Made by a program: the position numbers and the translations under genes
The notes under the pieces: model-generated
What the model saw: the letters and a program-made list of their open reading frames with translations, nothing else
Told to the model about the DNA's origin: nothing
The model's database searches: none
Source: Ancylobacter aquaticus
GTDB lineage: Bacteria; Pseudomonadota; Alphaproteobacteria; Rhizobiales; Xanthobacteraceae
Assembly: GCF_004339465.1 (NCBI RefSeq)
Contig: NZ_SMFY01000003.1
Location: forward strand, 1-64,000
Length of the DNA stretch: 64,000 nt
Direction of reading: 5' to 3'
In this document: piece by piece, positions 16,339 to 30,180 of the stretch
How the letters are laid out: each line of letters begins with the position of its first letter
Position numbering within the stretch: the stretch's first letter is position 1

Positions 16339-17157
16339 TCACCCGGCTGGCATGTTGGATGCGAGCGCCATGATACCTGTCCATCCGTGCCAGCCGACAT
16401 AAAGGCCGACGGCGATCAGTAGCATGCTGGAGAAGTAAGGCGCGCGGCGCGCGAAGGTGGAAAACCAGGTGAAGCGCTTGGTGGCGTGTTGCACGCTCAG
16501 TGCCGCCGCCGCGCCGACCCCCACCAGTGTGAGGGCGAGACCGATCGAGAAGCACAGCACCAGCCCGAAGCCGAGGGTGAACTCCTTGAGCTGGAGGCAC
16601 AGCAGCAGCACGGTGATGGCCGCCGGACAGGGAATGAGGCCGCCGGTCAGGCCGAACAACACGATCTGCCAGGTTGTCACCTTGCGGTCGGCGAAGCGCT
16701 TGCGGATGTCGTTGGCGTGGGCCAGCTCATGGGCGTCCTGGTAGCCATCGGTGCCGACCTTTAGCCCGCGCATTTCCTCGTGCAGATGATCGTGGCCCTC
16801 GGTGCTCTTGAGGAACGACACGTCGAAATCGTGCGAGTGGTTGCCGTGACCGAGCGGGATGCGGGTCATAAAGTCGATCGGCATCGGCACGGTCTCAATG
16901 CTCTCGATGAAGCCGTCGCGCTCCTTGAAGCTGAATGTCTGGCTGGTGCCATTCGCACGTTCCGTGGTGATCGCCACCTCCCCCGCCGCCCACGGCTTGC
17001 CGCGCTCGGGGCGGAAGCGCCAATGTGCCATGCCGCCGTGGCCGTGCAGCTCCAGCTTATGAAGGCCGTGGCCGGTGTCGATCAGACGAAGCTGAGCCGG
17101 CTCATGGTCGTGGTCTTGGCCGTGTTGATCATGCGAATGCCCGTGATCACCATGCAA
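16339..17157 (-). pseudogene. rcnA-like nickel/cobalt efflux gene, 5' truncated
   Basis: The frame encodes ~272 residues of a NicO/RcnA nickel-cobalt exporter: a His-rich stretch (HGDHGHSHDQHGQDHDH), a soluble domain, and three C-terminal membrane segments with GLTGGLIPCPAAI. The N-terminal three helices with the HGxxPGH-type metal motif are missing. An in-frame TGA lies five codons upstream of the first possible start (TTG), immediately beside the nrsF stop. Recombination at about 17170 removed the 5' half. It is contiguous with the NreB-like remnant, 3 bp apart. Confidence 0.78.
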
Positions 17158-17172: not shown

Positions 17173-17808
17173 TTACCAACGCAGCAGGCGTTGACCCACT
17201 ACATACCCGGCAGCTACGACGACTGACATAGCGATTGGGTACCAGAGCAGAACGAAGAGCGGGCTATCGTCGTCGCAATTCGCTGCATAGAAGGTCGCGG
17301 CTATGCTTGCAGCGGCAAGACCGGCGATCGCTCCCGCCCGTCCCGGCTGGGTGGGTGCGCCATGTCGCAGCGCGGCCAGGAGGCAGGCGAGCGGCAGGAT
17401 GGACAGGAGCGGGATAAGCGTCAGGCAGAATCGAGCGTTATGACCGGTCATGCTCGCCTGCCATGCCTCGGGCGGTAGAAGCCATAATTCGCACCAGATA
17501 GCTCCGAGCAGAACGATCGGTGCGGCGGCGAGCACCCACCGCCAGGCACCAGGTTCCGATCCTGGACAGGCCATCGCCATCACCCAACCCGTCGCACCAA
17601 TAGCAAGCGGAACCGTGATCGCGAATTTTGCCAGGAATCGAACGGTCCTTGCTGCGTGATCAAGATCCGGCCGGACGCCGATGGACGAAAAGAACAACGC
17701 GCCGGCAAATGCCACGCTCCCGAAAGCCGCAGCGAGAAAAACCGTACGAAACGGCCGGCCGTGAGCTACGTCACGCGCCAGGAGCTCGATGAGTTCGGCG
17801 GTCTTCAC
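17173..17808 (-). CDS. nrsF: NrsF (DUF1109) anti-sigma factor, copy 1
   Basis: This 211-residue integral membrane protein has six hydrophobic segments and the DUF1109 layout: short cytoplasmic N-terminus (MKTAELIELLARD), LLPPEAW, and CDDDSPLFVLLWYP near the end. NrsF proteins hold SigF-type ECF sigma factors at the membrane and release them under metal or thiol stress (Caulobacter SigF is the described case). GTG start with GGGAGG ribosome site. An ECF-like promoter (17835-17863) lies just upstream. It is a close paralogue of the next gene. The matching sigma gene is 5 kb away. Confidence 0.88.
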   Translation of the reverse strand: MKTAELIELLARDVAHGRPFRTVFLAAAFGSVAFAGALFFSSIGVRPDLDHAARTVRFLAKFAITVPLAIGATGWVMAMACPGSEPGAWRWVLAAAPIVLLGAIWCELWLLPPEAWQASMTGHNARFCLTLIPLLSILPLACLLAALRHGAPTQPGRAGAIAGLAAASIAATFYAANCDDDSPLFVLLWYPIAMSVVVAAGYVVGQRLLRW

Positions 17809-17834: not shown

Positions 17835-17863
17835 GGTACGCTGGTGAGGGCGATTTCATTACA
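17835..17863 (-). promoter_or_regulatory. Candidate ECF promoter of nrsF copy 1
   Basis: On the reverse strand TGTAATG (17863-17857) is followed after exactly 16 bp by CGTACC (17840-17835). The same -35/spacer/-10 arrangement precedes the PLP operon (22901-22873) and the mtnK gene (24640-24668). The start codon lies ~27 bp downstream. Confidence 0.6.
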
Positions 17864-17926
17864 TTGCCGTGCCCGCAATATGCGTAATGAGGTGATTCCT
17901 GTCGGCTCAGGAGCGTCTGATCCTAC

Positions 17927-18562
17927 CTACCAGCGCAGCAGCCGGCGACCGGCGAGATAGCCGACCCCAGCCATGATCGTGACGGCAATGCCATACCAGG
18001 CCGCAACGAACAGCGGGCTGTCGTCTGGGCAATGGGCGGCATAGAACGCTGCGGCGATGGCGCCCGACGCCAGCCCGGCGAGAGTACCGGCGCGGCCCGG
18101 ATTGCTCGGAGCGCCACGCCGCAAAGCCAGAAGCAGAAGGGCGAGCGGGACGAGCGACAAAAATGGAATGACTTTCAGGCAGAAGCTGGCGCTCTGCCCA
18201 ACCAGCCTCGCCGTCCACGCCTCGGGCGGCACGACCAATAGCTCAATGGCCACCGCTATGATTAGCAGCGCCGGCGCGGCAGCGAGCAGCCACGGCCACG
18301 CGCCGAATTCGGCCCCTGGACGCGCCATTGCCTGCGCCAGACCAAGAGCCCCTGCAGCGAGAGTGAGGGTGACAACGAACTTCATCAGGAAACGCATCGT
18401 TTCGGCCGCGATCAGGAAGTCGTGCCGCACGCCGATCATCGCGAAAAACAGGACACCAGCGGCAGCGACACTGCATATCAGTGCGACACTGAACAGCATG
18501 CGGAACGACCATTGCGGCGCGTTGTCCTTCGCGAGCAGCTCAATCAGATTGTCGGTCTTCAA
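17927..18562 (-). CDS. nrsF: NrsF (DUF1109) anti-sigma factor, copy 2
   Basis: This second 211-residue DUF1109 membrane protein is the same length as copy 1 and shares its landmarks (KTDNLIELLAKD, VVPPEAW, CPDDSPLFVAAWYGIA, RRLLRW end). The start is a TTG at 18562 with GGAG 9 bases upstream; no ATG or GTG fits. The six-helix topology predicts a membrane anti-sigma factor. Having two tandem copies and only one sigma gene nearby suggests duplication, perhaps with one copy free to sense another signal. Between the copies are 118 bp holding the promoter of copy 1. Confidence 0.85.
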   Translation of the reverse strand: MKTDNLIELLAKDNAPQWSFRMLFSVALICSVAAAGVLFFAMIGVRHDFLIAAETMRFLMKFVVTLTLAAGALGLAQAMARPGAEFGAWPWLLAAAPALLIIAVAIELLVVPPEAWTARLVGQSASFCLKVIPFLSLVPLALLLLALRRGAPSNPGRAGTLAGLASGAIAAAFYAAHCPDDSPLFVAAWYGIAVTIMAGVGYLAGRRLLRW

Positions 18563-18672
18563 CGCACCGCTCCTGCCCAGCGGCATCTGCCGCCTCATTC
18601 GCTGACCGGACGGCGCAAACGCGACCTCGCCTCGGCGGCCGGACACATAACACGTCGCATCGGATTTTTCCG

Positions 18673-19041
18673 CTAGCTGCGCGCCAATACCAGCACACCG
18701 ACAACGACGATGGCGATGCCCGCCACCCGCATCGGCGGCATCGACTCGCCGAACAGTTGCCAGCCGGCGACCGCGACCATAACGAAGCCAAGCGCAAGGA
18801 ATGGATAGGCGAAAGACACTTCCACGCGGCCAAGCACGTAGAGCCAGACGAGGATGCTGACGCCGTAGCAGGCCAGGCCGACCAGGATCGACGGACGTAG
18901 CGCCAATGAAGCGATCGACTCGAGCAACGATCCAGTGGTCACCTCCGCTGCGGAGCGCGCGCCCCATCGCAGGAAAAGCTGCGCCGCCGCATTCAGCGTG
19001 ACGCTGACAAGGATCATGCTGATGAGCAAGGTCCTGTTCAT
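18673..19041 (-). CDS. Four-helix EamA/SMR-like membrane protein (ArnE/F type)
   Basis: This 122-residue protein has four hydrophobic helices and the small drug/metabolite transporter pattern (LNAAAQLFLRWGA, VEVSFAYPFLALGFV). Its size and its neighbours, a sugar epimerase and glycosyltransferase, are like the ArnE/ArnF and GT-associated flippases, which move lipid-linked sugars across the inner membrane. Its ATG overlaps the epimerase stop as ATGA. Drug efflux cannot be excluded, but the operon favours a glycolipid role. Confidence 0.8.
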   Translation of the reverse strand: MNRTLLISMILVSVTLNAAAQLFLRWGARSAAEVTTGSLLESIASLALRPSILVGLACYGVSILVWLYVLGRVEVSFAYPFLALGFVMVAVAGWQLFGESMPPMRVAGIAIVVVGVLVLARS

Positions 19042-20120
19042 TCCTGCGGCATCATCGCGCGATGGGGGCTCGACAACTCGGAAGCCGCGTCGAGGTGGGC
19101 CAGTTCGGCCATCCCGTCATGGAAGTCGATCTCCGGTTGCCAGTCGAGTTCGCGCCGCAACCGCGAGGAATCGGCCGTAATATGGCGCACATCGCCGAGC
19201 CGATAACGCTGCGTCACCACCGGAGCAGGTCCGGCAAGCGTCGTTGCCAAAGCCGCTGCCATTTCGCCGACGGTACGCGGTATTCCCGAACCGACATTGA
19301 AGGCCCGCACCCCGCTCTCGTGCCGTTCGCAGGCCAGCACGGTAGCGGCCGCAACATCCCGCACATGAATGAAATCTCGCCGCTGGCGGCCGTCCTCGAA
19401 GACCTGTGGGGCCTCGCCGCGCCGCAATGCCGAGGTGAAAATCGAGGCGACCCCGGCATAGGGGGTGTCCTTGGGCATGCCCGGGCCATAGACATTGTGA
19501 TAGCGCATCATCGCCACCGCGCCGCCGGTCGCCCGGGCCCAGTTGGCGGCGTAAAATTCCTGAGCGGCCTTGCTGGTGGCATAGGCATTGCGCGGGTCGA
19601 AGGGGGTGTCCTCGACGACAAGCTGGGTTTCGAGCGGCTGGCCGCAATGAGGACAGGGCGGCTCGAAGTCTCCTGACTTGAGCGCGCGCTCAAACCGTGG
19701 CGCCGGCCGCACGGCTCCATGGTCGGAGCACAGGCCGAAGCCTTCTCCATAGACCACCATCGAACTCGCCAAAGTGAGGCGCGACACGCCCGCCCGGGCC
19801 ATCGCCACCAGCACCTCGGCCGTTCCCACGTCGTTGGAAGCGGCGTAGTCCGGCATGTCGCCCACATCGACACCGAGGCCCACCTTGGCGGCGAGATGGA
19901 TGACGGCATCGATGCCGGCCATCGCCTCCTCAACTGCCACAGGATCGCGCATGTCGCCGATGAGAGGCTCGACGCCCCGCGGAACGCGCCATGGCAGGCT
20001 GCCCTTGTGGACGTCGGGGCGCAGCGAATCCATCGCCCGGACGTCGTGCCCCCTGCTGAGCAGCCCGTCCATGACATGGATGCCGATGAAACCTGCTGCA
20101 CCGGTCAGAAGAACCCGCAT
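19038..20120 (-). CDS. NAD-dependent sugar epimerase/dehydratase with Cys-rich insert
   Basis: This 360-residue extended SDR has GAAGFIG near residue 8 (TGAAGFIGIHV), the catalytic Ser-Ser-Met region (LASSMVVYGEG) and Tyr-Lys in NAYATSKAAQEF, as in nucleotide-sugar epimerases. Between them is an insert (about residues 125-165) with C-x-x-H (LCSDHG) and CPHCG, spaced like a zinc ribbon. The ATG at 20120 fits the Rossmann start. It lies 19 bp after the glycosyltransferase stop. It probably makes the sugar nucleotide used by that enzyme; the exact sugar is unknown. Confidence 0.87.
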   Translation of the reverse strand: MRVLLTGAAGFIGIHVMDGLLSRGHDVRAMDSLRPDVHKGSLPWRVPRGVEPLIGDMRDPVAVEEAMAGIDAVIHLAAKVGLGVDVGDMPDYAASNDVGTAEVLVAMARAGVSRLTLASSMVVYGEGFGLCSDHGAVRPAPRFERALKSGDFEPPCPHCGQPLETQLVVEDTPFDPRNAYATSKAAQEFYAANWARATGGAVAMMRYHNVYGPGMPKDTPYAGVASIFTSALRRGEAPQVFEDGRQRRDFIHVRDVAAATVLACERHESGVRAFNVGSGIPRTVGEMAAALATTLAGPAPVVTQRYRLGDVRHITADSSRLRRELDWQPEIDFHDGMAELAHLDAASELSSPHRAMMPQE

Positions 20121-20139
20121 TGCCGTTTCTCCTCGTACG

Positions 20140-21624
20140 TCAGTGCCGTCCATCGGGCAGCGAGCGGGCCGTGAGCCCGGCCTTGGCCGCGCTGGATCGC
20201 CTCTGCAGCCGCGCCAGCCGGATGAAGGTTGTGGTGATCTTCCAGGCGGCGGTTACCCCGGCCATCAGATTGCCCGACACCTTCGACTCCCCGCCGCGGC
20301 GGCGGCGGTGATCGACGGCAATCTCCACGCAGCGCAGGCCGGCTGCAGCGGCACGCATCTGCATTTCAAGATTCCAGCCATAGGTTTGCTCGATCATGCC
20401 GAGCGCCAACAGCTTGTCGACCCGCATGGCGCGCATCGGCGACATGTCGGTGAAACGGACGCCATACACCATTCTCAGCAGCACGCCGGACAGCCACCCT
20501 GCAACAATCTGCTGCGGCGTCATCGAGCCGGCTTCACGATGGCCGCGCAAGCGCGAACCCATGACGAAATCGGCCGTGCCGGCCCGTACCGGCTCCACCA
20601 CCTCGGGAATGAAGGACGGCACATCGCTGCCATCACCATCGAGAAAACACACGATCTTGGTCTCGGGCTTCAGGGCGAGAAGACCTGCTGCGCAAGCCCG
20701 GCCATATCCACGCACGGGCTGCGATATCACGCGAGCCCCGGCGGCGGCGGCGCGCTCAGCGGTGCGGTCGCTCGAGCCATTGTCGACGACGATGACCTCC
20801 CCGACACCTGCGGCGAGGACGTCCCGGACGACGTCGGCGATCGGCTCCTCTTCATTGAGACAAGGAATGACCACGGCGACGGAAGACAGCATGGTGCCGG
20901 CCTTCACAGCGGCGCCCGATGCCGCGCGATGGCGAACGAAGTCCGTGGTTCGCGGTGCGCTCTCGCCCGACAGCCCCGGGGCCGCAAACGCCAGTGGCAG
21001 ACCCTCCATCTCCCGCTCGAGCAGCGCATAGGTTTCGGCATCGTCGACATCGTACCAGGCATCGAGTTCAACCACCGGCAACCCGATCTCTCGGGCGCGC
21101 TCAAGCGTGAGCCGATAGACGTCCCCGGTGCTCCACGGGATGTCCTTGAAGAGGTACGCATGCGGCTGCGACAGCCCGACGAGGGTGTAGCCGCCATCGA
21201 GCGCCGGGCTTAGGACAACCCGGTCGTCACCGGTCTTCAGCGCGTCGACCGCGGCCCGAAGGATGGACTTCGGCAGGGTCGGGCTGTCGGAATTGATCAG
21301 GATCGCACCGGCATGACCGGCGACCAGCAGATCGGCAATGCCCTTTTCGAGACGATCGCCAAGGTTACCTTCGCCCTGTAGCACCAGACCAAAGCCCGGC
21401 GGTAGCAGAAGCTTCAGCGCTTCCTCCGTGCCGGCCGGCGTATAGACGGCGTAACCGTCGACGTCGACATCCTCGGCGAGACTGGCGATGGTGGCGGAAA
21501 GATCGGCGATGAAGCAGGAGGAGATCTGCGCGCACTCTTCCGGCCGCAGCGGCGGCGAGAGGCGGGTTTTCGACTTGCCCGGCGCCGGCGTCTTGCAGAT
21601 GACCGCGACTGCTATCGTTTTCAT
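20140..21624 (-). CDS. Fusion: DUF2064 (TIGR04282-type) transferase domain + GT2 glycosyltransferase
   Basis: A single 494-residue frame joins two glycosyltransferase-fold domains. Residues 1 to ~215 are a DUF2064/TIGR04282-like domain (CKTPAPGKSKTRL, INSDSPTLP, LSPALDGGYTLVGL). Residues ~245-470 are a GT2 of the DPM1/polyprenol-phosphate type (VIPCLNEEEP, VVDNGSSDRT, DGDGSD, MGSRLRG). A ~30-residue linker joins them, with an internal Met before the GT2 part. No stop or ribosome site is evident at the junction, so I read it as a true fusion. It likely transfers a sugar to a lipid carrier. The ATG has GGAG ~10 bases upstream. Confidence 0.86.
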   Translation of the reverse strand: MKTIAVAVICKTPAPGKSKTRLSPPLRPEECAQISSCFIADLSATIASLAEDVDVDGYAVYTPAGTEEALKLLLPPGFGLVLQGEGNLGDRLEKGIADLLVAGHAGAILINSDSPTLPKSILRAAVDALKTGDDRVVLSPALDGGYTLVGLSQPHAYLFKDIPWSTGDVYRLTLERAREIGLPVVELDAWYDVDDAETYALLEREMEGLPLAFAAPGLSGESAPRTTDFVRHRAASGAAVKAGTMLSSVAVVIPCLNEEEPIADVVRDVLAAGVGEVIVVDNGSSDRTAERAAAAGARVISQPVRGYGRACAAGLLALKPETKIVCFLDGDGSDVPSFIPEVVEPVRAGTADFVMGSRLRGHREAGSMTPQQIVAGWLSGVLLRMVYGVRFTDMSPMRAMRVDKLLALGMIEQTYGWNLEMQMRAAAAGLRCVEIAVDHRRRRGGESKVSGNLMAGVTAAWKITTTFIRLARLQRRSSAAKAGLTARSLPDGRH

Positions 21625-21646
21625 GAATCGAATTCTCCGCGGATCG

Positions 21647-22798
21647 CTAGAGCAGCAGGTCGAGGGACTGGAGAAGGTCCCGGTAGAGATCGTCGGCATC
21701 CTCGAGGCCTATGGAGAGACGCAGGAGGTCTTCGGGACAGGTCGATCCCTCGCCTTCGATCGACAGCCGATGCTCGACCAGGCTTTCGATTCCACCGAAC
21801 GAAGTGGCCCGCCGCCAGAGCTGCACATTCGCGGCTACCGCGATGGCGGCTTTCGCGCCACCCTTCACCCGCACCGACAGCATTCCGCCGAAGCCATTCG
21901 CCATCTGCCGGGCGGCAGTCGCATATCCGGGATGGTGTGGAAGTCCCGGATAGAGCACCGTTTCGATCGCCGGATGCAAGGAGAGCCGGTCAGCAAGGAT
22001 CGCCGCGCTCCGACTTTGCTCCTTCACGCGCAGATCAAGCGTGCGCAGGCCGCGCATCAGCAACCATGCGTCGAAAGAGCCGGGAACGGTGCCGGACTGG
22101 TCGCGCGTATCCTTCGCACGCAGCCAGAGTTCCGAGCGGTCGGCCGTGGCCAACACGCCGGCGACCACGTCGGAATGGCCATTGAGGTATTTGGTCGCCG
22201 AATGCATGACGATGTCGGCACCGAAATCCAGCGGTCGGGTCAATACAGGGGTCGCGACTGTCGAGTCGACGCAGACCTGTGCCCCGGCACGATGGGCATA
22301 GTCGGCAACGGCGGCAATGTCGGTGATTGTCCAGAGTGGATTGCTCGGGGTTTCGATCCACACCAGCCCTGTCCTGCCGGGGCGGACGGCCGCACGAAAT
22401 TCGTCCAACCGGGACATGTCGACAAAGGTGATGTCATGCCCGTAGCGGGATGCGCCCTGCAGCCAGATACGCAGCCCCCAGTACATCGCGCTCGGCACGA
22501 CGATGTGCGTGGGTGGGAGCGCCGTGAAGATGGCGGTTGCAGCCGCCATGCCCGAACCGAACAGCATCGCTTCCTGCGCGTGTTCGAGTTCGGCAACGTA
22601 CCGTTCAGCCTGCTGAACCGACGCGTTGTCCTTGCGGCCATAAACGCGGCCGGCGCTGTACCCGTTGTCATGGTCGCGCGTATAGGTCGCGCTCATGTCG
22701 ATGGAGGGCGTCAACGCCGTCAGCGATGGGCGCCCCACGCCCAAAGCGCGGGCGGCGACAGTGCGCGGCGTAACATTTCGAGTGGGACGGTCGTCCAT
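21647..22798 (-). CDS. Cys/Met-metabolism PLP-dependent enzyme (cystathionine lyase/synthase family)
   Basis: This 383-residue fold-type I PLP enzyme has YGRKDNASVQQAE near residue 55, the PLP-binding SGMAAATAI, the Asp of CVDSTVATP and the Schiff-base Lys in HSATKYLNGHSD near residue 200. C-terminal SFGGIESLVEHR is the family substrate-carboxylate region. Members include MetB, MetC and related gamma-lyases; the exact reaction cannot be fixed. It leads the operon with the fused glycosyltransferase 22 bp downstream, and a good ECF-type promoter lies 75-105 bp upstream. Confidence 0.87.
   Translation of the reverse strand: MDDRPTRNVTPRTVAARALGVGRPSLTALTPSIDMSATYTRDHDNGYSAGRVYGRKDNASVQQAERYVAELEHAQEAMLFGSGMAAATAIFTALPPTHIVVPSAMYWGLRIWLQGASRYGHDITFVDMSRLDEFRAAVRPGRTGLVWIETPSNPLWTITDIAAVADYAHRAGAQVCVDSTVATPVLTRPLDFGADIVMHSATKYLNGHSDVVAGVLATADRSELWLRAKDTRDQSGTVPGSFDAWLLMRGLRTLDLRVKEQSRSAAILADRLSLHPAIETVLYPGLPHHPGYATAARQMANGFGGMLSVRVKGGAKAAIAVAANVQLWRRATSFGGIESLVEHRLSIEGEGSTCPEDLLRLSIGLEDADDLYRDLLQSLDLLL
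22770..22797 (+). promoter_or_regulatory. Weak ECF-like promoter match toward the sigma gene
   Basis: GTAACA (22770-22775), 16 bp, CGTCCA (22792-22797) on the forward strand. It points to the ECF sigma gene at 23194 but would give a ~390-base leader, and it lies inside the 5' coding end of the PLP gene. It may be chance. Confidence 0.25.
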
Positions 22799-22872
22799 GG
22801 AACCTGCGATTGGTCGGCATCCGGGATGAAACCAGGCGCATTCCGCCTGGGCGGTTTAAGCGCCTTGAAGTG

Positions 22873-22901
22873 TCTACGCAGCGAGTGGCGGCTTCGTTAC
22901 A
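22873..22901 (-). promoter_or_regulatory. Candidate ECF promoter of the PLP/glycosyltransferase operon
   Basis: Reverse strand TGTAACG (22901-22895), 16 bp, CGTAGA (22878-22873). This is the best match of the local set and resembles the GTAAC / CGT promoters described for SigF-type ECF factors. The operon ATG is 74 bp downstream. Confidence 0.65.
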
Positions 22902-23193
22902 GCGGCCTTGCATTTTTCCGTCAGCGGTTCCGGTCAGAGTGCCAGGGCCATCCCGGTTCGCGCTCACGCAGGAATCGTCCGCTGGCAAATCCCAACGGGC
23001 ACGGTCTTCGCAGCCATGAAAGGGAGATTTTCTGCCGGCTGAAAACGCAGGCGCCGTGTGCGCCGCCCCGCCTGTCTCGCAACTGTCTGAATTTGACGGC
23101 ATGGCTATGGGAGCGAGCGTCTTGGTATTTTAGATCGTACGATATAAAACTGCCTTGGCTGAGCTTGATGACGGGATTCATACGGGAGCGTGC

Positions 23194-23748
23194 GTGAGGC
23201 AAGCGAGTCGCGAGGGTGAATGGTCGACGAGCATGCGCGCCGCTCTGGCCGGCGACGCGGATGCCTATCGCCGTTTTCTTCATGCCGTGACGCCGCACCT
23301 GCGCACGCTGGCCCGCCAAAGCTGCGCGCGTTTCGGCGCACCGGCTACCGATGCCGAAGACGCGGTTCAGGAAGCTTTGCTGGCCATCCACCTTAAAAGG
23401 AGCACATGGGACCCGGCACGGCCGATTACTCCATGGATCTCGGTGATCGTCCGCAACAAGCTCATCGACGTGCTGCGGCGTTCCGGCCAAGGGACCGTTC
23501 CCATTGACGACCTCGTCGATATGCTGCCGGCAAATGACGCTTTCGCCTGTGCTGAACCGGGTGAGGTGGAGCGTCTGATGGGAAAGTTGAAGACGCAGCA
23601 GCGCGCGGTCATCCAGGCGGTTACGGTCGAAGGCTGCTCGGCGCGCGAGGCCGCCACCCTTCTCGGCATGAGCGAAACGGGAGTCCGGGTGTCGCTGCAC
23701 AGGGCCTTGAGGGCGCTCGCGGCGCTCTACCAGACGCATGCCGGCTGA
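23194..23748 (+). CDS. ECF sigma factor, NrsF/DUF1109-associated type
   Basis: This ~184-residue sigma factor has region 2 (DAYRRFLHAVTPHLRTLAR, DAEDAVQEALLAIHL, WISVIVRNKLIDVLRR) and region 4 (QQRAVIQAVTVEGCSAREAATLLGMSETGVRVSLHRALRAL with its HTH). The sequence HLKRSTWDPARPITPWI is characteristic of the sigma factors paired with DUF1109 proteins. I chose the GTG at 23194 because GGGAG lies ~8 bases upstream; a TTG 13 codons earlier is open. The DUF1109 partner genes are not adjacent but at 17.2-18.6 kb. A TATAAA-like box at about 23142 may be a housekeeping promoter. Confidence 0.9.
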   Translation: MRQASREGEWSTSMRAALAGDADAYRRFLHAVTPHLRTLARQSCARFGAPATDAEDAVQEALLAIHLKRSTWDPARPITPWISVIVRNKLIDVLRRSGQGTVPIDDLVDMLPANDAFACAEPGEVERLMGKLKTQQRAVIQAVTVEGCSAREAATLLGMSETGVRVSLHRALRALAALYQTHAG

Positions 23749-23780
23749 GCGTGTTCCGGTGAAGTTGCAGGTGGAAGGCT

Positions 23781-24491
23781 TTACTGCGTCGCCGCAGCAA
23801 TGACGGGACCGCCGCCACTCTCCTGCACCAGAATGGCCGCCTTCAGTCCCGCCGGCGTCGCCCGAGTGGTGAAGCTGGTGGCCCGGCCGTCCCATCCCCC
23901 GAGACGGACGAGGTTATGGACCACATGGCTGTGCGGCAGCGTGCGCCCGGAATTCTCACCACGCCGCACCGGGACCTGGACCACGCCCGGATCGTACCAG
24001 ACCAGCCAAACGTCACTTGGCGCGCGCAACGCGGCGGCGCCGATGCCCACACGCTCAGGAGCGAGGGTCAGCGTCGGGCCGCGCTTGCGCGGGCTCGCCC
24101 CGATCAGCTGGCGCATCTGTGCCAGATCGAACCCGATGGCGCTCGCACGCCCATCCACCACCATCTGCGGCGTGAAGGGCCCGCTCTGCCCCAGCTTCGG
24201 CTCGTAGGTCACTTGCCGCTCGGTATATTCACGCCGCCCGAACACGTCTTTCCAGCCAAGATAGTCCCAGTAGGTCACGCTGAAACTCAGTGCGAGCACG
24301 TCGTCGCGCGCCGCGAGCGCGATGAGATTGGCGTTGGCAGGCGGGCAAGACGAGCATCCCTGGCTCGTAAAGAGTTCGACGACGACGGGCTGCCGTTCCG
24401 GCGTAACCACGGTTTCGGCGGCGGCCCGAGATATCGAAGCGCAGAGCAGAACGGCGGTCAGAACAGTGACGGGAAGAGAGAGGGGTTTCAT
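23781..24491 (-). CDS. DUF1223 secreted thioredoxin-like protein
   Basis: This 236-residue exported protein has a Sec signal (about residues 1-25) and a thioredoxin-fold start VVELFTSQGCSSCPPANANL carrying a CxxC motif (CSSC) near residue 47. This is the DUF1223 family. The strands VTYWDYLGWKDVF and FTPQMVVDG are conserved in it. The CxxC suggests redox or metal chemistry in the periplasm. It lies convergent to the ECF sigma gene, 32 bp between stops, and a weaker ECF-like motif precedes it. Confidence 0.88.
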   Translation of the reverse strand: MKPLSLPVTVLTAVLLCASISRAAAETVVTPERQPVVVELFTSQGCSSCPPANANLIALAARDDVLALSFSVTYWDYLGWKDVFGRREYTERQVTYEPKLGQSGPFTPQMVVDGRASAIGFDLAQMRQLIGASPRKRGPTLTLAPERVGIGAAALRAPSDVWLVWYDPGVVQVPVRRGENSGRTLPHSHVVHNLVRLGGWDGRATSFTTRATPAGLKAAILVQESGGGPVIAAATQ

Positions 24492-24536
24492 CGGAACTCC
24501 GATCGCTGTGCGGCGACCCATGCGGCCGGCTTCTGC

Positions 24537-24564
24537 CATTCGCGGGTTCCGTTTCGATTGTTAC
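24537..24564 (-). promoter_or_regulatory. Weak ECF-like promoter match before the DUF1223 gene
   Basis: Reverse strand GTAACA (24564-24559), 16 bp, CGAATG (24542-24537). Spacer is as in the stronger matches but the -10 departs from CGTA. The DUF1223 ATG is ~46 bp downstream. Confidence 0.35.
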
Positions 24565-24639
24565 CGAGACACGCGCTTGTGTTGGCCGCTCGCCGAGCCG
24601 GACTGCTGCGCTCTGACCCGTTCACCAATCCGTGATCGG

Positions 24640-24668
24640 TGTAATGAACGGCGCCTTGCCCGCGTAGG
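24640..24668 (+). promoter_or_regulatory. Candidate ECF promoter of mtnK
   Basis: Forward strand TGTAATG (24640-24646), 16 bp, CGTAGG (24663-24668), with the ATG of mtnK 60 bp downstream. It matches the 17.8 kb and 22.9 kb sites in both boxes and spacer. Confidence 0.6.
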
Positions 24669-24728: not shown

Positions 24729-25994
24729 ATGCTCACCAGATCTCCCTATGAGCCGCTAACGCCGACCACGATGCCCGCCCGGCTGGGCGGCCTGCCGGAA
24801 ATGACACGCAGGCTCGGCCCTTCGGCCGAGTGGCGGGTGCGCGAGGTCGGCGACGGCAACCTCAACCTCGTCTTTATCGTGGAAGGACCGGCCGGTTCGC
24901 TGGTGGTGAAACAGGCGCTGCCTTATGCGCGCGTGGTTGGCGAGAGCTGGCCGATGTCGCTCGATCGCGCCTATTTCGAACATGAGGCCAGCATGCGCCT
25001 CGGTGCCCGCGATCCCGGCCGCATGCCTCACATGCACCTGTTCGACCGCGAGCAGGCCGTCCAGATCATGGAGCATCTCACCCCGCACATCATTTTGCGC
25101 AGGGGCCTGATCGACGGCACGCGCTATCCGATGCTGGGCGGGCATCTCGGCCGCTATCTCGCGCGCACGCTGTTCCGCGGATCGGACTGGTCGATGGAAA
25201 CAGCACGCCGGAAGGCGGATGTGGCGTTGTTTGCCGGCAATGTAGAGCTGTGTGGCATCACCGAGGATCTGTTCTTTACCGACCCATTCCACGATTGCGT
25301 GCGCAATCGCCACAATCCGCTTCTCGATCGCGACGTCATTGAACTTCGTGGCGACCGGGCGCTGAAGCTTGCGGCACTCCGCATGAAGACCCGTTTCTGC
25401 ACCAGCGCGCAGACGCTGCTGCACGGAGACCTTCATACCGGCTCGATCATGGTCAGCGCCGAGGACAGCCGGGTCATCGACGCCGAATTCGCCACCTATG
25501 GGCCGATCGGCTTCGACATCGGGTCGCTGCTCGCCAATCTCTGGATGGCATGTCTCGCACAAGGCGCGTTGCGGCCGAGCGACGACGAGGCAACCTCCTA
25601 TCGCGGCTGGATCCTCGCTCTCGCCGAGACCGTGTGGAAGGTTTTCGTCGCTGAATTTACGCATCTATGGCTCACCGAGCGTTCCGGAATCCTCGGCGGG
25701 CGGGAACTGCTGGAGCATCAGGATGATGCCGAAGGTGCCGCGCTTGCCCTGAACGCCCTGCTCGACGAGATCTGGCGCGACACGATTGGCTTTGCCGGCA
25801 TTGAGATGCATCGTCGCGTTGTTGGGCTCGCCCATATTGCCGAGTTCGAGGCCATCGCGGACGAGGAACTGCGGGCCGGCTGCGAGCGTCGCGCGCTCCG
25901 TCTCGGTCGCGCACTTGCCGTCGAGCCGGAGCGCTTTTCTGACATCGCCGATGTGAGTGCGCTGGTAGCGGAACTTGCCGGACGCGACCGATGA
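24729..25994 (+). CDS. mtnK: S-methyl-5-thioribose kinase
   Basis: This 421-residue APH-fold kinase should phosphorylate 5-methylthioribose, a step of methionine salvage. It has the nucleotide-loop GDGNLNLVFIV near residue 42, VVKQALPY with the ATP-binding Lys, the catalytic LLHGDLHTGSIM near residue 235 and the metal-binding IDAEFATYGPIGFDIG. These are the MtnK rather than aminoglycoside-kinase versions. No mtnA or other salvage gene is beside it. The upstream ECF-like promoter suggests stress control, and a Cys/Met PLP enzyme shares that motif. Confidence 0.9.
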   Translation: MLTRSPYEPLTPTTMPARLGGLPEMTRRLGPSAEWRVREVGDGNLNLVFIVEGPAGSLVVKQALPYARVVGESWPMSLDRAYFEHEASMRLGARDPGRMPHMHLFDREQAVQIMEHLTPHIILRRGLIDGTRYPMLGGHLGRYLARTLFRGSDWSMETARRKADVALFAGNVELCGITEDLFFTDPFHDCVRNRHNPLLDRDVIELRGDRALKLAALRMKTRFCTSAQTLLHGDLHTGSIMVSAEDSRVIDAEFATYGPIGFDIGSLLANLWMACLAQGALRPSDDEATSYRGWILALAETVWKVFVAEFTHLWLTERSGILGGRELLEHQDDAEGAALALNALLDEIWRDTIGFAGIEMHRRVVGLAHIAEFEAIADEELRAGCERRALRLGRALAVEPERFSDIADVSALVAELAGRDR

Positions 25995-26642: not shown

Positions 26643-27296
26643 ATGAATACGCAAAAGAAAATGCATCCTCTGCCCATAAGACTCATGCATTGGACCAATG
26701 CGATCGCAATGATAATTATGATCATGAGCGGATGGAAGATTTACAATGACGAGGTGATTTTCGGATTTCTGCACTTCCCCGACGCGATCACGCTCGGCCC
26801 CTGGGCCCAGCACGGCCTGCAATGGCATTTCTTCGGCATGTGGGTTCTCGCACTGAACGGGCTTGCCTATCTGGCCTACGGGGTGATTTCTGGCCGCTTC
26901 CGCCGGTTGCTGCTGCCGATCTCACCGCGTGAGGTGATCCGCGAAGCGCTGGCCGCGCTCACCTTCAAGCTCCAGCATGCCGACCTCACGCACTACAATG
27001 CGGTGCAGAAGACGCTGTATGTCGGCGTCATACTGGTGATCATCCTGCAGGTGATTTCCGGCCTCGCCATCTGGAAGCCGGTGCAGTTTTCGTTCCTCGT
27101 CTCGCTGTTCGGCGATTTCCAGGGCGCGCGCATCGTGCATTTCTTCGGCATGACGGCGATATGCCTGTTCATGGTCGTGCACATCGCGCTCGCCCTGCTC
27201 GTGCCCCGCACCATTCTGGCGATGCTTACCGGCGGCCCGAGGGTCGATGTCCGGCCGGCCGATGCGCCCGTCTCCATCAATTCCCCGAACATGTGA
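26643..27296 (+). CDS. Cytochrome b561-type di-heme membrane protein
   Basis: This 217-residue protein has four main transmembrane helices. His residues in the helices (RLMHWTN, WHFFGMW, RIVHFFGM, MVVHIALA) fit the heme ligands of bacterial cytochrome b561 / YceJ-like electron carriers. It would pass quinol electrons to a periplasmic enzyme. The molybdoenzyme gene starts 11 bp downstream in the same direction and is the evident partner. GGAAAAAG lies just before the ATG. The N-terminus is unusually AT-rich in codon use compared with neighbours. Confidence 0.87.
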   Translation: MNTQKKMHPLPIRLMHWTNAIAMIIMIMSGWKIYNDEVIFGFLHFPDAITLGPWAQHGLQWHFFGMWVLALNGLAYLAYGVISGRFRRLLLPISPREVIREALAALTFKLQHADLTHYNAVQKTLYVGVILVIILQVISGLAIWKPVQFSFLVSLFGDFQGARIVHFFGMTAICLFMVVHIALALLVPRTILAMLTGGPRVDVRPADAPVSINSPNM

Positions 27297-27307
27297 CGGA
27301 TCGCACC

Positions 27308-28099
27308 ATGTCCATCATCCGACGCTCGACTTCATTGTTCCAGCCGCGCCGCGGCCCGGAGCAGCGCATCCTCACCGAGAACCGCGCGCTGATCGAGGAT
27401 ATCGACCGTCGCAAGCTGCTGCGCGGCGCGGTGAGCCTCGGCGCGCTATCCATGCTGACCGGATGCGACGTCGCCGAGCAGCCGCAGGTCCAGAGCGTGC
27501 TGCGCACGGTCTCCTCTTTCAACGACCGGGTGCAGGCGGCAATCTTCGATCCGAACCGGCTGGCGCCCACCTATTCGGAGGCGCAGGTGGTGAATCCGCC
27601 GCGCTTCAACGCCTACTACGAGATTGAGAACGTCAAGCCGATCGATATTTCCGGCTGGAAGCTGGAGCTTGCGGGCCTCATCAACGACAGGCGCCCGTGG
27701 AACATTGAACAGATCTATGCCCTTCCCGAGCAGGAAGAGATCATCAAGCACATCTGTGTCGAGGGATGGGACTATATTGGCCAGTGGTCCGGCCCTAACC
27801 TCAGGCATTTCCTGACGCTGGTAGGCGCCGACCTGACGGCGAAATACGTCGCCTTCCACGGCAATGACGATTATCTGGAAGTCATCGACATGCCCTCGGC
27901 GCTGCATCCGCAGACCATTCTGGCCACAAAATACGCCCGCGAGCCGATCACCGATCCGTTTGGCTACCCGTTGCGCCTGCGCACCGCCGTGAAGCTAGGC
28001 TTCAAGAACCCGAAATGGATACGAGCCATCGAAGTCACCAATACCTACCAGGAGGGGTTCTGGGAGAAGCAGGGCTTCAACTGGTTCAGCGGGCTGTGA
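27308..28099 (+). CDS. MsrP/YedY-like molybdopterin-dependent oxidoreductase
   Basis: This 263-residue enzyme belongs to the sulfite-oxidase fold. It has a twin-arginine-like region (DIDRRKLLRGAVSLGALSML) for Tat export, though preceded by a longer N-terminal tail, and TGC could support a lipid anchor. The segment IKHICVEGWDYIGQWSG contains the single molybdenum-ligand Cys. Residues RLRTAVKLGFKNPKWI bind the cofactor. MsrP normally pairs with six-helix MsrQ for repair of methionine sulfoxide; here the partner is a b561 protein. The substrate is therefore uncertain. Confidence 0.88.
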   Translation: MSIIRRSTSLFQPRRGPEQRILTENRALIEDIDRRKLLRGAVSLGALSMLTGCDVAEQPQVQSVLRTVSSFNDRVQAAIFDPNRLAPTYSEAQVVNPPRFNAYYEIENVKPIDISGWKLELAGLINDRRPWNIEQIYALPEQEEIIKHICVEGWDYIGQWSGPNLRHFLTLVGADLTAKYVAFHGNDDYLEVIDMPSALHPQTILATKYAREPITDPFGYPLRLRTAVKLGFKNPKWIRAIEVTNTYQEGFWEKQGFNWFSGL

Positions 28100-28155: not shown

Positions 28156-30180
28156 ATGTTCTCGCTTATTTCGGCCCTTCTCTGCGCCGCCGTCGGCCTC
28201 CTGCTCTGGACCGGCGTCGGCTATGTGCTGGCGCGCCGCCTGGCGCTTGGCCATGGGCTGGCGCTGCCGGTCGCGCCGGCGCTCGGCTGGGCGGTGCAGA
28301 ACGCGGTCGCGCTGGCGCTGGGGCAATTGATCGGCTTCTCGCCCGTCGCGACGATCGGCGCGGCGGTGCTGCTGTGCTCCGTCCTTCTGGTGAAGAGGCA
28401 CTCGCTGGATGAGCCCTCGGCCAGCACAGACGCTGTGCCCTGGTGGCTCTTTGCCATGGCCGCGGTGGTGGCCATGGCTCCCGCCCTGGCCGTGCTGCCG
28501 AAGCAGGTCGCGGAGGGCGTCATCCTCGCGCCCGCCATCTTTGATCACTCGAAGATCGCGCTGATCGACGAGATCGTTCGGGGTGGGGTGCCCCCAGTCA
28601 ATCCATTCTTCGGGCCCACCGGCCAGTCAGCGGACGTCGCCTATTACTATCTCTGGCATTTCGGCGCCGCCCAGCTTGCTGGCCTGACGGGCGCAACCGG
28701 CTGGGAGGCGGACGCAGCGGCGAGCTGGTTCACGGCGTTCTCGACCCTCGCGCTCATGGCGGGTCTCGCGCGCTACCTCAGTGGTTCGCGGCTTGCTCCG
28801 GCCATCGCCCTCGCGCTGTGCTGCACCGGCTCGTTGCGGCCAGTCCTCGAGGCCATCGTCGGCGGTACCGCGCTTGAAGCTCTGCTAAAGCCCGCCAGCG
28901 GTTTTGCCGGCTGGCTGTTCCAGTCGAGCTGGAGTCCGCATCATGTCGCGGCGGCGGGTTGCCTCGTCACGGCCACGCTGCTGGTCACGCGCCTCACGCG
29001 CAACCCAAATCTCCTCTCGACCGTGATACTGGCCCTTGTCATGTCGGCCGGCTTCCAGAGTTCGATCTGGGTCGGCGGGGTGGTGATGGCGCTTGTCGCC
29101 GCCGCGCTCGTGCCTCTGATGCTGTCCTCGATCCCGCTCCCGGCGTGGCCGCGCTTTGTCGGGGCGGGGGTCGCGGCAGGGCTGCTCGCCCTCGCAATCG
29201 CCTCGCCGCTTCTCGTCGCCCAGTACCATGCCGCGCTGCTGCGGGCGGCTGGAAGCCCGGTAGCGGTTGTGCCCTATGCGGTGCTCGGTCCGCTGGCGGA
29301 AGCTGCCCTCGGCGGGGCGGGTAACATGGCGGCCTATTGGCTGGTGCTGCTCGTCGTCGAATTTCCGCTCGTCTATATCGCGGGCACCCTGACGCTGGCG
29401 CGCATGGCCACGGAGCGCGAGGAGGACGATGTGCGCCGGATCGATGTCCACGCGCTGCTCACCGTCGTCGCGGTCAGTCTCGCGTCGAGCTGGCTGCTCG
29501 TCAGCACGGTCGGCGACAATAACGATCTCGGCTGGCGCGCGGTGCTACCTGCGCTACTGGTGTTGACGGCTGCCGCTGCAGCGGGGATTGCGCGCTGGGT
29601 CGAACAACGCACCCGCCTTGTGGCCAGCCTCGCAGTGGCGGCCTTCGCGGCGAGCGTGCCAGCCGGCGCCATCATCATCGCCGGCAACGCGAGGGGCGAG
29701 CTGTCGCCCTCGGCAGAGGCGTTTGCGAAGGCACCCGCCATGTGGGCGGCGGTACGGCGCCACACGCCCGAAGACGCACGGGTCGCAAACAACCCCGGCC
29801 TGTTCGCCGACATGACGCCGTGGCCGGTCAACATTTCCTGGGCGCTGCTTGGCGATCGCCGCTCGTGTTTCGCCGGCAACGAACTGGCGATCGCTTTCGC
29901 CCCGCTTTCGCCAGAACGCCGGGCCGAGATTTCAGGCCGGTTTCTCCGCACCTTCGCCGGCGGTGGATCGCCCGACGACGTCCGCGCTCTGGCCGAGACC
30001 TATGGCTGCGGCACTGTGCTGCTCACCGCCCTCGACGGCGCCTGGGCGAACGACCCGTTCGCCGCCAATCGGTTCTACCGGCTGGCCGAGGCGCAGGCGG
30101 GTGCGTGGCGCGTCTATGTCGCCGTCCCGTCCTCGGACGACGATGCGCCACCGAATTCCGCCGGTCAGAGCGCCGAGTGA
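28156..30180 (+). CDS. Large polytopic membrane protein, glycosyltransferase-like
   Basis: This 674-residue protein has about twelve to fourteen hydrophobic helices and a C-terminal soluble part from about residue 510. A loop between the first helices and TM5 contains AIFDHSKIALIDEIVRG, NPFFGPTGQSADVAYYYLWHFG, a layout like GT-C-fold or DUF2298-type glycosyltransferases. No certain family match can be made by eye. The last 16 bases overlap the convergent SDR gene. It may act in cell-envelope glycan synthesis, but this is inference. Confidence 0.75.
   Translation: MFSLISALLCAAVGLLLWTGVGYVLARRLALGHGLALPVAPALGWAVQNAVALALGQLIGFSPVATIGAAVLLCSVLLVKRHSLDEPSASTDAVPWWLFAMAAVVAMAPALAVLPKQVAEGVILAPAIFDHSKIALIDEIVRGGVPPVNPFFGPTGQSADVAYYYLWHFGAAQLAGLTGATGWEADAAASWFTAFSTLALMAGLARYLSGSRLAPAIALALCCTGSLRPVLEAIVGGTALEALLKPASGFAGWLFQSSWSPHHVAAAGCLVTATLLVTRLTRNPNLLSTVILALVMSAGFQSSIWVGGVVMALVAAALVPLMLSSIPLPAWPRFVGAGVAAGLLALAIASPLLVAQYHAALLRAAGSPVAVVPYAVLGPLAEAALGGAGNMAAYWLVLLVVEFPLVYIAGTLTLARMATEREEDDVRRIDVHALLTVVAVSLASSWLLVSTVGDNNDLGWRAVLPALLVLTAAAAAGIARWVEQRTRLVASLAVAAFAASVPAGAIIIAGNARGELSPSAEAFAKAPAMWAAVRRHTPEDARVANNPGLFADMTPWPVNISWALLGDRRSCFAGNELAIAFAPLSPERRAEISGRFLRTFAGGGSPDDVRALAETYGCGTVLLTALDGAWANDPFAANRFYRLAEAQAGAWRVYVAVPSSDDDAPPNSAGQSAE

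Follow-up and report, generated by a model that had tools for sequence, protein, structure and literature searches.

A predicted NrsF-controlled ECF16 regulon with a stand-alone sigma factor gene in Ancylobacter aquaticus

The window analyzed here is a stretch of 64,000 bases of Ancylobacter aquaticus (C3:1-64000, C3 being a contig of the 4.83-Mb genome) that contains a gene for an extracytoplasmic function (ECF) sigma factor at 23194..23748 on the plus strand. This factor, of the ECF16 type (SigF/EcfF-like), runs, with a probability that we put at about 0.8, a local regulon of four transcribed units under the control of NrsF anti-sigma factors and without autoregulation of the sigma gene. The four units would be an operon for a pyridoxal phosphate (PLP) enzyme, a glycosyltransferase (GT), a sugar epimerase, an EamA-like membrane protein and the anti-sigma factor NrsF2; nrsF1; mtnK, for S-methyl-5-thioribose (MTR) kinase; and the gene for a DUF1223 protein. 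The original prediction, made from the window, had proposed a local regulon of a SigF-type, NrsF-controlled ECF factor. Comparison among relatives supports the regulon, but the sigma gene itself, tentatively included at the time, apparently lies outside it.

Three matches to TGTAAYG-N16-CGTAVV occur in the window, at the positions and on the strands originally predicted, versus a mean of 0.02 over 100 dinucleotide shuffles. They are predicted ECF16-type promoters of nrsF1 (17835..17863, minus strand; TGTAATG-N16-CGTACC, 27 bp from the GTG start), of the PLP operon (22873..22901, minus strand; TGTAACG-N16-CGTAGA, 75 bp from the ATG), and of mtnK (24640..24668, plus strand; TGTAATG-N16-CGTAGG, 60 bp from the ATG), in agreement with the direction and the range of 27 to 75 bp claimed for them. 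The weaker site expected before the DUF1223 gene is also present (24537..24565, minus strand; GTAACA-N16-CGAATG). This predicted ECF16-type promoter has the published textbook form of the group, GTAAC-N16-CGAA, and the other three sites have the form GTAAYG-N16-CGTA, two of them with GTAAT; each conforms either to the group form or to its EcfF variant. The longer open reading frame of the DUF1223 gene (from 24539) overlaps the -10 box, and its start must therefore be at 24491 (GGAG..ATG).

A scan of the complete genome (4,831,989 bases), run as TGTAAYG-N16-CGTA, returned three matches, all of them the window sites before start codons, and one match to the reversed pattern. Across the genus, the reversed pattern also averages about one match per genome (32 matches in 30 genomes), so the number of sites is unimpressive by itself, and clustering and placement carry the weight: the three sites fall inside 6.8 kb (chance about 6e-6 by simple arithmetic), and all are oriented toward a start codon. 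With two mismatches allowed, the pattern was not enriched in the genome (248 matches versus 725 for its reverse), and only near-exact sites are therefore informative.

Among the 30 Ancylobacter genomes compared, eight carry the module, and orthologues of mtnK and the PLP gene are confined to the same eight. A site precedes every copy of the PLP operon (9/9), mtnK and the DUF1223 position in all eight genomes, and all six copies of nrsF1; at the locus of the other two genomes (G151 and G162), both nrsF1 and its site are missing. The sites are still kept where mtnK lies about 11 to 24 kb from the sigma gene (G084, G062, G151, and G162) or on another contig (G150). The eight GTAA/CGWA box positions are identical between lineages in 168 of 168 comparisons, versus 137/336 for the spacer, 306/630 for the 30 bases upstream, and 217/630 for the 30 downstream, figures that are conditioned on sites found by the pattern and drawn from nonindependent lineage pairs. 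A module-type DUF1223 gene (at least 64% identity) is found in seven of the eight genomes, G062 excepted. The sigma factor of seven module genomes is the window's own or 65 to 71% identical to it, and the eighth, G163, has one 58% identical at the same locus. Conservation and the comparisons that follow indicate that the predicted sites are promoters. In genome G150 (C9, C44, and C13), the PLP operon is duplicated, both promoters included, and the window-type sigma gene likewise occurs twice.

Paralogous loci, read with the strict pattern, behave differently from those of the module. The genus has 37 DUF1223 matches; among the 30 loci read, the site was present in all seven module loci and in none of the 23 paralogues. 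None of the 29 mtnK loci read in other families carries a strict site (out of 101 genomes with a match, the window's genome being one), and MTR kinase has no support as a general ECF16 target. For the PLP enzyme, matches were present in 49 genomes, that of the window among them, and two of the 29 loci read in the order carry a strict site; each belongs to family f28 and adjoins a GT gene, and support for the enzyme as a general target is slight. In genome G429 of the same family, genes for a PLP enzyme, a DUF2064-type protein, a GT and an epimerase are followed by sigma and nrsF genes, with ECF16 sites before the PLP and sigma genes. Because these f28 loci carry sites, the PLP-GT operon appears tied to this kind of sigma factor beyond the genus, which mtnK, among the loci read, does not.

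The exact sites also track the sigma subgroup. Genomes with a CGTA-type sigma factor, defined as at least 53% identical to that of the window, hold 38 exact sites (15 genomes), versus three in the 15 genomes without, and the reversed pattern gave 16 and 16. All but two of these 41 sites are at module, sigma/bufferin or methionine sulfoxide reductase (msr) genes, bufferin being the name that we take to apply to operons of the DUF2282/DUF692/DUF2063/DoxX kind. Module promoters account for 22 (nine PLP, six nrsF1, and seven mtnK) and checked sigma-bufferin loci for eight; one (G154:C21) adjoins a sigma gene by coordinates only, one precedes the G153 sigma gene, and one precedes a DUF2282 gene of G150. 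The msr genes, which surfaced unprompted, comprise msrP in four genomes (G062, G151, G159, and G164), an msrQ-like gene in G161 that falls short of the cut-off (113.9 versus 130 bits), and msrB-msrA in G154, with one site before each. In the published accounts cited (PMC3420878 and PMC8315932), methionine sulfoxide reductases recur among the targets of this sigma group.

The product of the gene at 23194 matches PRK12512 with 236 bits (cut-off 198), and both PF04542 and PF08281 score over their cut-offs, so regions 2 and 4 are present. In a quick tree of 50 ECF16-like sigma factors (11 of 47 inner branches starred), it falls with its genus orthologues in a supported clade of seven (98*), beside the G163 sigma factor (91), and the neighbors of this clade are factors whose own promoters mostly have CGTA. 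Labeling of sigma factors as CGTA or CGAA (18 and 11 rows) implies three changes on the tree versus a shuffled mean of about nine (0/500 as low), near-copies among the rows favoring a low value. By these comparisons, the window sigma factor is ECF16/EcfF-like, of a subgroup that mostly uses CGTA instead of CGAA. At three loci (L058, L059, and L060), CGTA at the sigma promoter is accompanied by CGAA at the divergent promoter, and at L133 and L151 in Rhizobium, much as in the window, a CGAA site precedes a DUF1223 gene that faces away from a CGTA promoter, with an ECF16-like sigma gene close by. Because both forms share single loci, the simplest view is that one sigma factor reads both. The same view fits genome G062, which keeps CGTA and CGAA sites although at E<=1e-25 it has the window-type sigma factor only, without a canonical SigF. 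The factor encoded at 23194 would thus read GTAAY-N17-CGTA and, at the DUF1223 gene, CGAA.

The wiring of the system departs from the usual ECF16 layout, in which an autoregulated sigma gene lies beside its anti-sigma gene; as that layout is usual rather than strictly required, we call the system a variant. Both nrsF1 (17173..17808, minus strand) and nrsF2 (17927..18562, minus strand), the latter encoding a second NrsF 58% identical to the first, lie at least 4.6 kb from the sigma gene, across the PLP operon. A site of its own is missing from nrsF2, which is apparently the last gene of the PLP operon and would be expressed by read-through. The eight module genomes have nine known sigma genes of the window type (two in G150), all of them without a strict ECF16 site upstream. 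With both the spacer and the last base relaxed, nothing with GTAA was found upstream of seven of the nine, and G062 showed one ill-placed, unconserved match. A still looser form with GCAA matched before the sigma gene in two copies and is not kept in the others. A weaker site had originally been suggested, with a "perhaps," before the sigma gene of the window, where neither a strict nor a relaxed ECF16-type site occurs. In contrast, a strict site precedes 30 of 45 other sigma rows, mostly 38 to 52 bp before the start of the match, and eight of 13 site-less rows that were rechecked have a relaxed site at 40 to 57 bp. ECF autoregulation of the sigma gene was therefore rejected for eight of the nine copies, which have no convincing strict or relaxed site upstream. 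A TATAAA hexamer lies 38 to 51 bp before the sigma start in eight of the nine copies, G163 excepted; in the window, we read it as part of a putative sigma70-like element, CTTGGT-N16-TATAAA (23121..23148, plus strand), which looks like a housekeeping promoter.

In the proposed mechanism, the sigma factor would be held at the membrane in the resting state by one or both NrsF proteins, and oxidation or metal attack on conserved NrsF cysteines would free it. The freed factor would then transcribe the effector genes and make fresh NrsF, resulting in shut-off. Since nrsF2 apparently ends the PLP operon, nrsF1 has its own site, and the sigma gene, unjoined to an anti-sigma gene and presumably transcribed by the housekeeping machinery, has none, feedback would be negative, via two anti-sigma factors, and not positive. 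NrsF1 belongs to family PF06532 by profile, and both it and NrsF2 keep the two cysteines (Cys128 and Cys178). The pair is present in 14 of 14 aligned NrsF proteins, of which 11 relatives were chosen by a motif containing the second cysteine, so that only the first is an independent finding. The two cysteines matter for the response or for sigma binding in Caulobacter and Bradyrhizobium, as described in the sections cited (PMC3511200 and PMC3420878). Against the NCBIfam NrsF equivalog, NrsF1 and NrsF2 score 76.8 and 100.3 bits, below the cut-off of 300, and a crude hydropathy scan gave five segments in each of the three NrsF proteins of the genome, including that of the canonical SigF locus described below, versus six for anti-sigma factors of the group.

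It is unlikely that the sigma factor serves only part of the regulon (e.g., nrsF1 and the DUF1223 gene), with mtnK or the PLP operon chiefly on other promoters. Such a division would accord with a conserved inverted repeat, CACGAAnnCGTGA, 4 to 5 bp upstream of both the mtnK and the DUF1223 -35 boxes, which might mark another main regulator; however, conservation of the boxes is no lower at mtnK and the PLP operon than at the other sites, and the PLP operon has ECF16 sites in family f28 as well. The repeat (window 24545-24640, less perfect there) is found in the same region of eight genomes and is possibly the site of a further regulator.

An improbable alternative is that the sites are real ECF16 promoters read mainly by another sigma factor of the same genome, or by both. 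The third NrsF gene of the genome, besides the two in the window, is at C3:163537, behind a second ECF16-like sigma gene at C3:162957 whose product is 42% identical to that of the window. This locus (L009 5229-9125; C3:160-164 kb) is divergent from DUF2282, PF05114 (DUF692), DUF2063, and DoxX genes and has GTAAC..CGAA sites both ways, the promoter of its SigF being GTAACA-N16-CGAA. The existence of this second sigma-NrsF locus favors such a reading, as does the DUF1223 site, which has exactly the CGAA form of SigF. Nevertheless, canonical SigF loci here and in G022 and G084 use CGAA, and 12 of the 15 genomes without a CGTA-type sigma factor, among them G022 with its canonical SigF, have no exact CGTA site. 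G062, with its CGTA and CGAA sites and the window-type factor only at the threshold given above, also speaks against it. Because the C3:162957 locus is an ordinary Caulobacter-like system, the window holds a separate, paralogous one. That the motif is a chance likeness or an ancestral remnant without sigma-dependent transcription is very improbable: its lack of enrichment when mismatches are allowed, the roughly one exact chance match per genome in the reversed control, and the G062 DUF1223 site without a recognizable gene fit that idea, but clustering, conservation among orthologues, the joint loss of the nrsF1 site and gene, and recurrence before msr genes do not.

Several observations weigh against a local regulon run by the 23194 sigma factor, in addition to the dependence noted for the box comparisons. 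Relaxing the pattern to GTAAYR-N16-CGWA gives no enrichment across the genome (13 matches versus 24 reversed). Correctly placed among the 13 are the four window sites, the SigF promoter, and a site at C1:629141 (minus strand) beside an msrA gene; the remaining seven are intragenic, antisense or misdirected by a simple gene call. The second ECF16 sigma factor (C3:162957) could read the CGAA site, and two of the 41 exact sites in the genus are unexplained (G062:C12:43498 and G156:C4:11634). Module genes may co-occur because they are physically linked. As neither NrsF gene is adjacent to the sigma gene, the pairing is drawn from the shared locus, and in G163, which has the module, no NrsF gene was found within the 30 kb examined. 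G062 (L098) keeps the DUF1223 site and start region, and no module-type DUF1223 gene was found there. One of the two window-type sigma copies of G150 (C13) stands apart from the module. Finally, in G163 (L256), the TATAAA element is missing and GTAACG-N16-CGT stands 75 bp upstream of the sigma gene, which may be self-activated; this could be an autoregulation retained in G163 and lost in its relatives. Support for the wiring claim therefore comes from the other seven genomes. The C1:629141 site (L117; GTAACG-N16-CGAACG) lies about 40 bp before the gene for an uncharacterized 238-amino-acid protein directly downstream of msrA.

The closest known systems share the regulators and differ in layout. 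EcfF-OsrA of Bradyrhizobium japonicum (ECF16; PMC3420878) has a DUF1109/NrsF anti-sigma factor with two key cysteines, C129 and C179 (C128 and C178 here), and its consensus, GTAAC(g,a)-N14-15-(t,c)CG(t,a), includes a CGT -10 element like the window sites. Methionine sulfoxide reductases are among its targets, as in relatives of the window, but ecfF and osrA form one operon that is apparently autoregulated, and Table 3 of that paper, in which several entries are "hypothetical," lists neither an MTR kinase nor a PLP-GT operon nor a DUF1223 protein. SigF-NrsF of Caulobacter crescentus (PMC3511200) shares the two-cysteine NrsF, the -35 element GTAAC, and the 16-base spacing, but has a -10 element of CGAA and sigF and nrsF in one operon; its counterpart here is the C3:162957 locus. 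BcrS-AbcS of Brucella melitensis (PMC8315932) combines an ECF16 sigma factor and a DUF1109 anti-sigma factor with a TGTAAC -35 element, Msr targets, and a hypochlorous acid response, whereas its sigma and anti-sigma genes are adjacent, its -10 element is GCGAAA, and its target is bcrXQP. RpoE7-EcfR7 of Sinorhizobium meliloti (PMC6180224) is likewise an ECF16 system with a small regulon, but with an adjacent anti-sigma factor, apparent self-activation, and four divergent genes as main targets. These four accounts are compared on the sections cited.

The original prediction had regarded the regulon as undescribed to its knowledge, which holds for its contents and not for its motif, already published as the EcfF consensus (PMC3420878). 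New relative to the open-access literature searched are the targets (MTR kinase, the PLP-glycosyltransferase-epimerase operon, and DUF1223) and the wiring, in which the sigma gene is separated from two nrsF genes that both seem to belong to the regulon, and eight of its nine copies lack an ECF-type promoter. Within that literature, no paper on methylthioribose kinase and a sigma factor was about ECF16, as judged by title, and DUF1223 was not found together with a sigma factor. The one paper found there on mtnK and an ECF sigma factor concerns Bacillus subtilis SigW and, in the part cited here, mentions mtnK as background and not as SigW dependent.

The gene content suggests a physiological role. 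The mtnK gene (24729..25994, plus strand) matches TIGR01767 with 471 bits (cut-off 275). The PLP operon, on the minus strand, begins with a Cys/Met-metabolism PLP enzyme (21647..22798) that is cystathionine gamma-synthase/lyase-like by profile and sequence, followed, by profile matches, by a DUF2064 domain (TIGR04282) fused to a family-2 glycosyltransferase (GT2; 20140..21624), an NAD-dependent sugar epimerase/dehydratase (19038..20120), and a small EamA/SMR-like membrane protein (18673..19041). The DUF1223 protein (23781..24491, minus strand) has a hydrophobic N-terminal segment and a CSSC motif. On this basis, the module may plausibly serve a response to thiol or methionine stress that includes a branch for lipid-linked sugars. 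It is a more doubtful idea that an ECF16 circuit, rewired to a constitutive stand-alone sigma factor and two self-made NrsF sensors, was recruited for a sulfur/sugar pathway in which MTR kinase, the PLP enzyme, and the lipid-sugar-type GT, epimerase, and EamA proteins make a protective thio- or envelope glycan against methionine-oxidizing stress.

The predicted regulon provides a testable case for those NrsF-controlled sigma factors that use CGTA, and through it methionine salvage (MTR kinase) and an uncharacterized PLP-glycosyltransferase pathway would join a response otherwise devoted to oxidative protein repair. The regulon also offers a natural ECF circuit in which the sigma gene is seemingly not autoregulated and two anti-sigma factors are paralogous, and its relatives provide a ready promoter set on how ECF16 factors tell CGTA from CGAA.

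A NicO-type nickel/cobalt transporter gene (window 16339-17157) lies just downstream of nrsF1, with which it may be cotranscribed; among the mapped loci, it occupies this place only in the window. Genes for a cytochrome b561 and a molybdopterin oxidoreductase (PF00174; window 26643-28099) adjoin mtnK in module genomes. ECF16 control of this pair in Ancylobacter was rejected, as none of eight upstream regions has a site, and homologues of the pair in L151 and L317 do carry one. A 674-amino-acid membrane protein (window 28156-30180) gave no Pfam match and no sequence match in the PDB. It has 11 hydrophobic segments, is kept with the module and, at a guess, is perhaps a GT-C-type glycosyltransferase.

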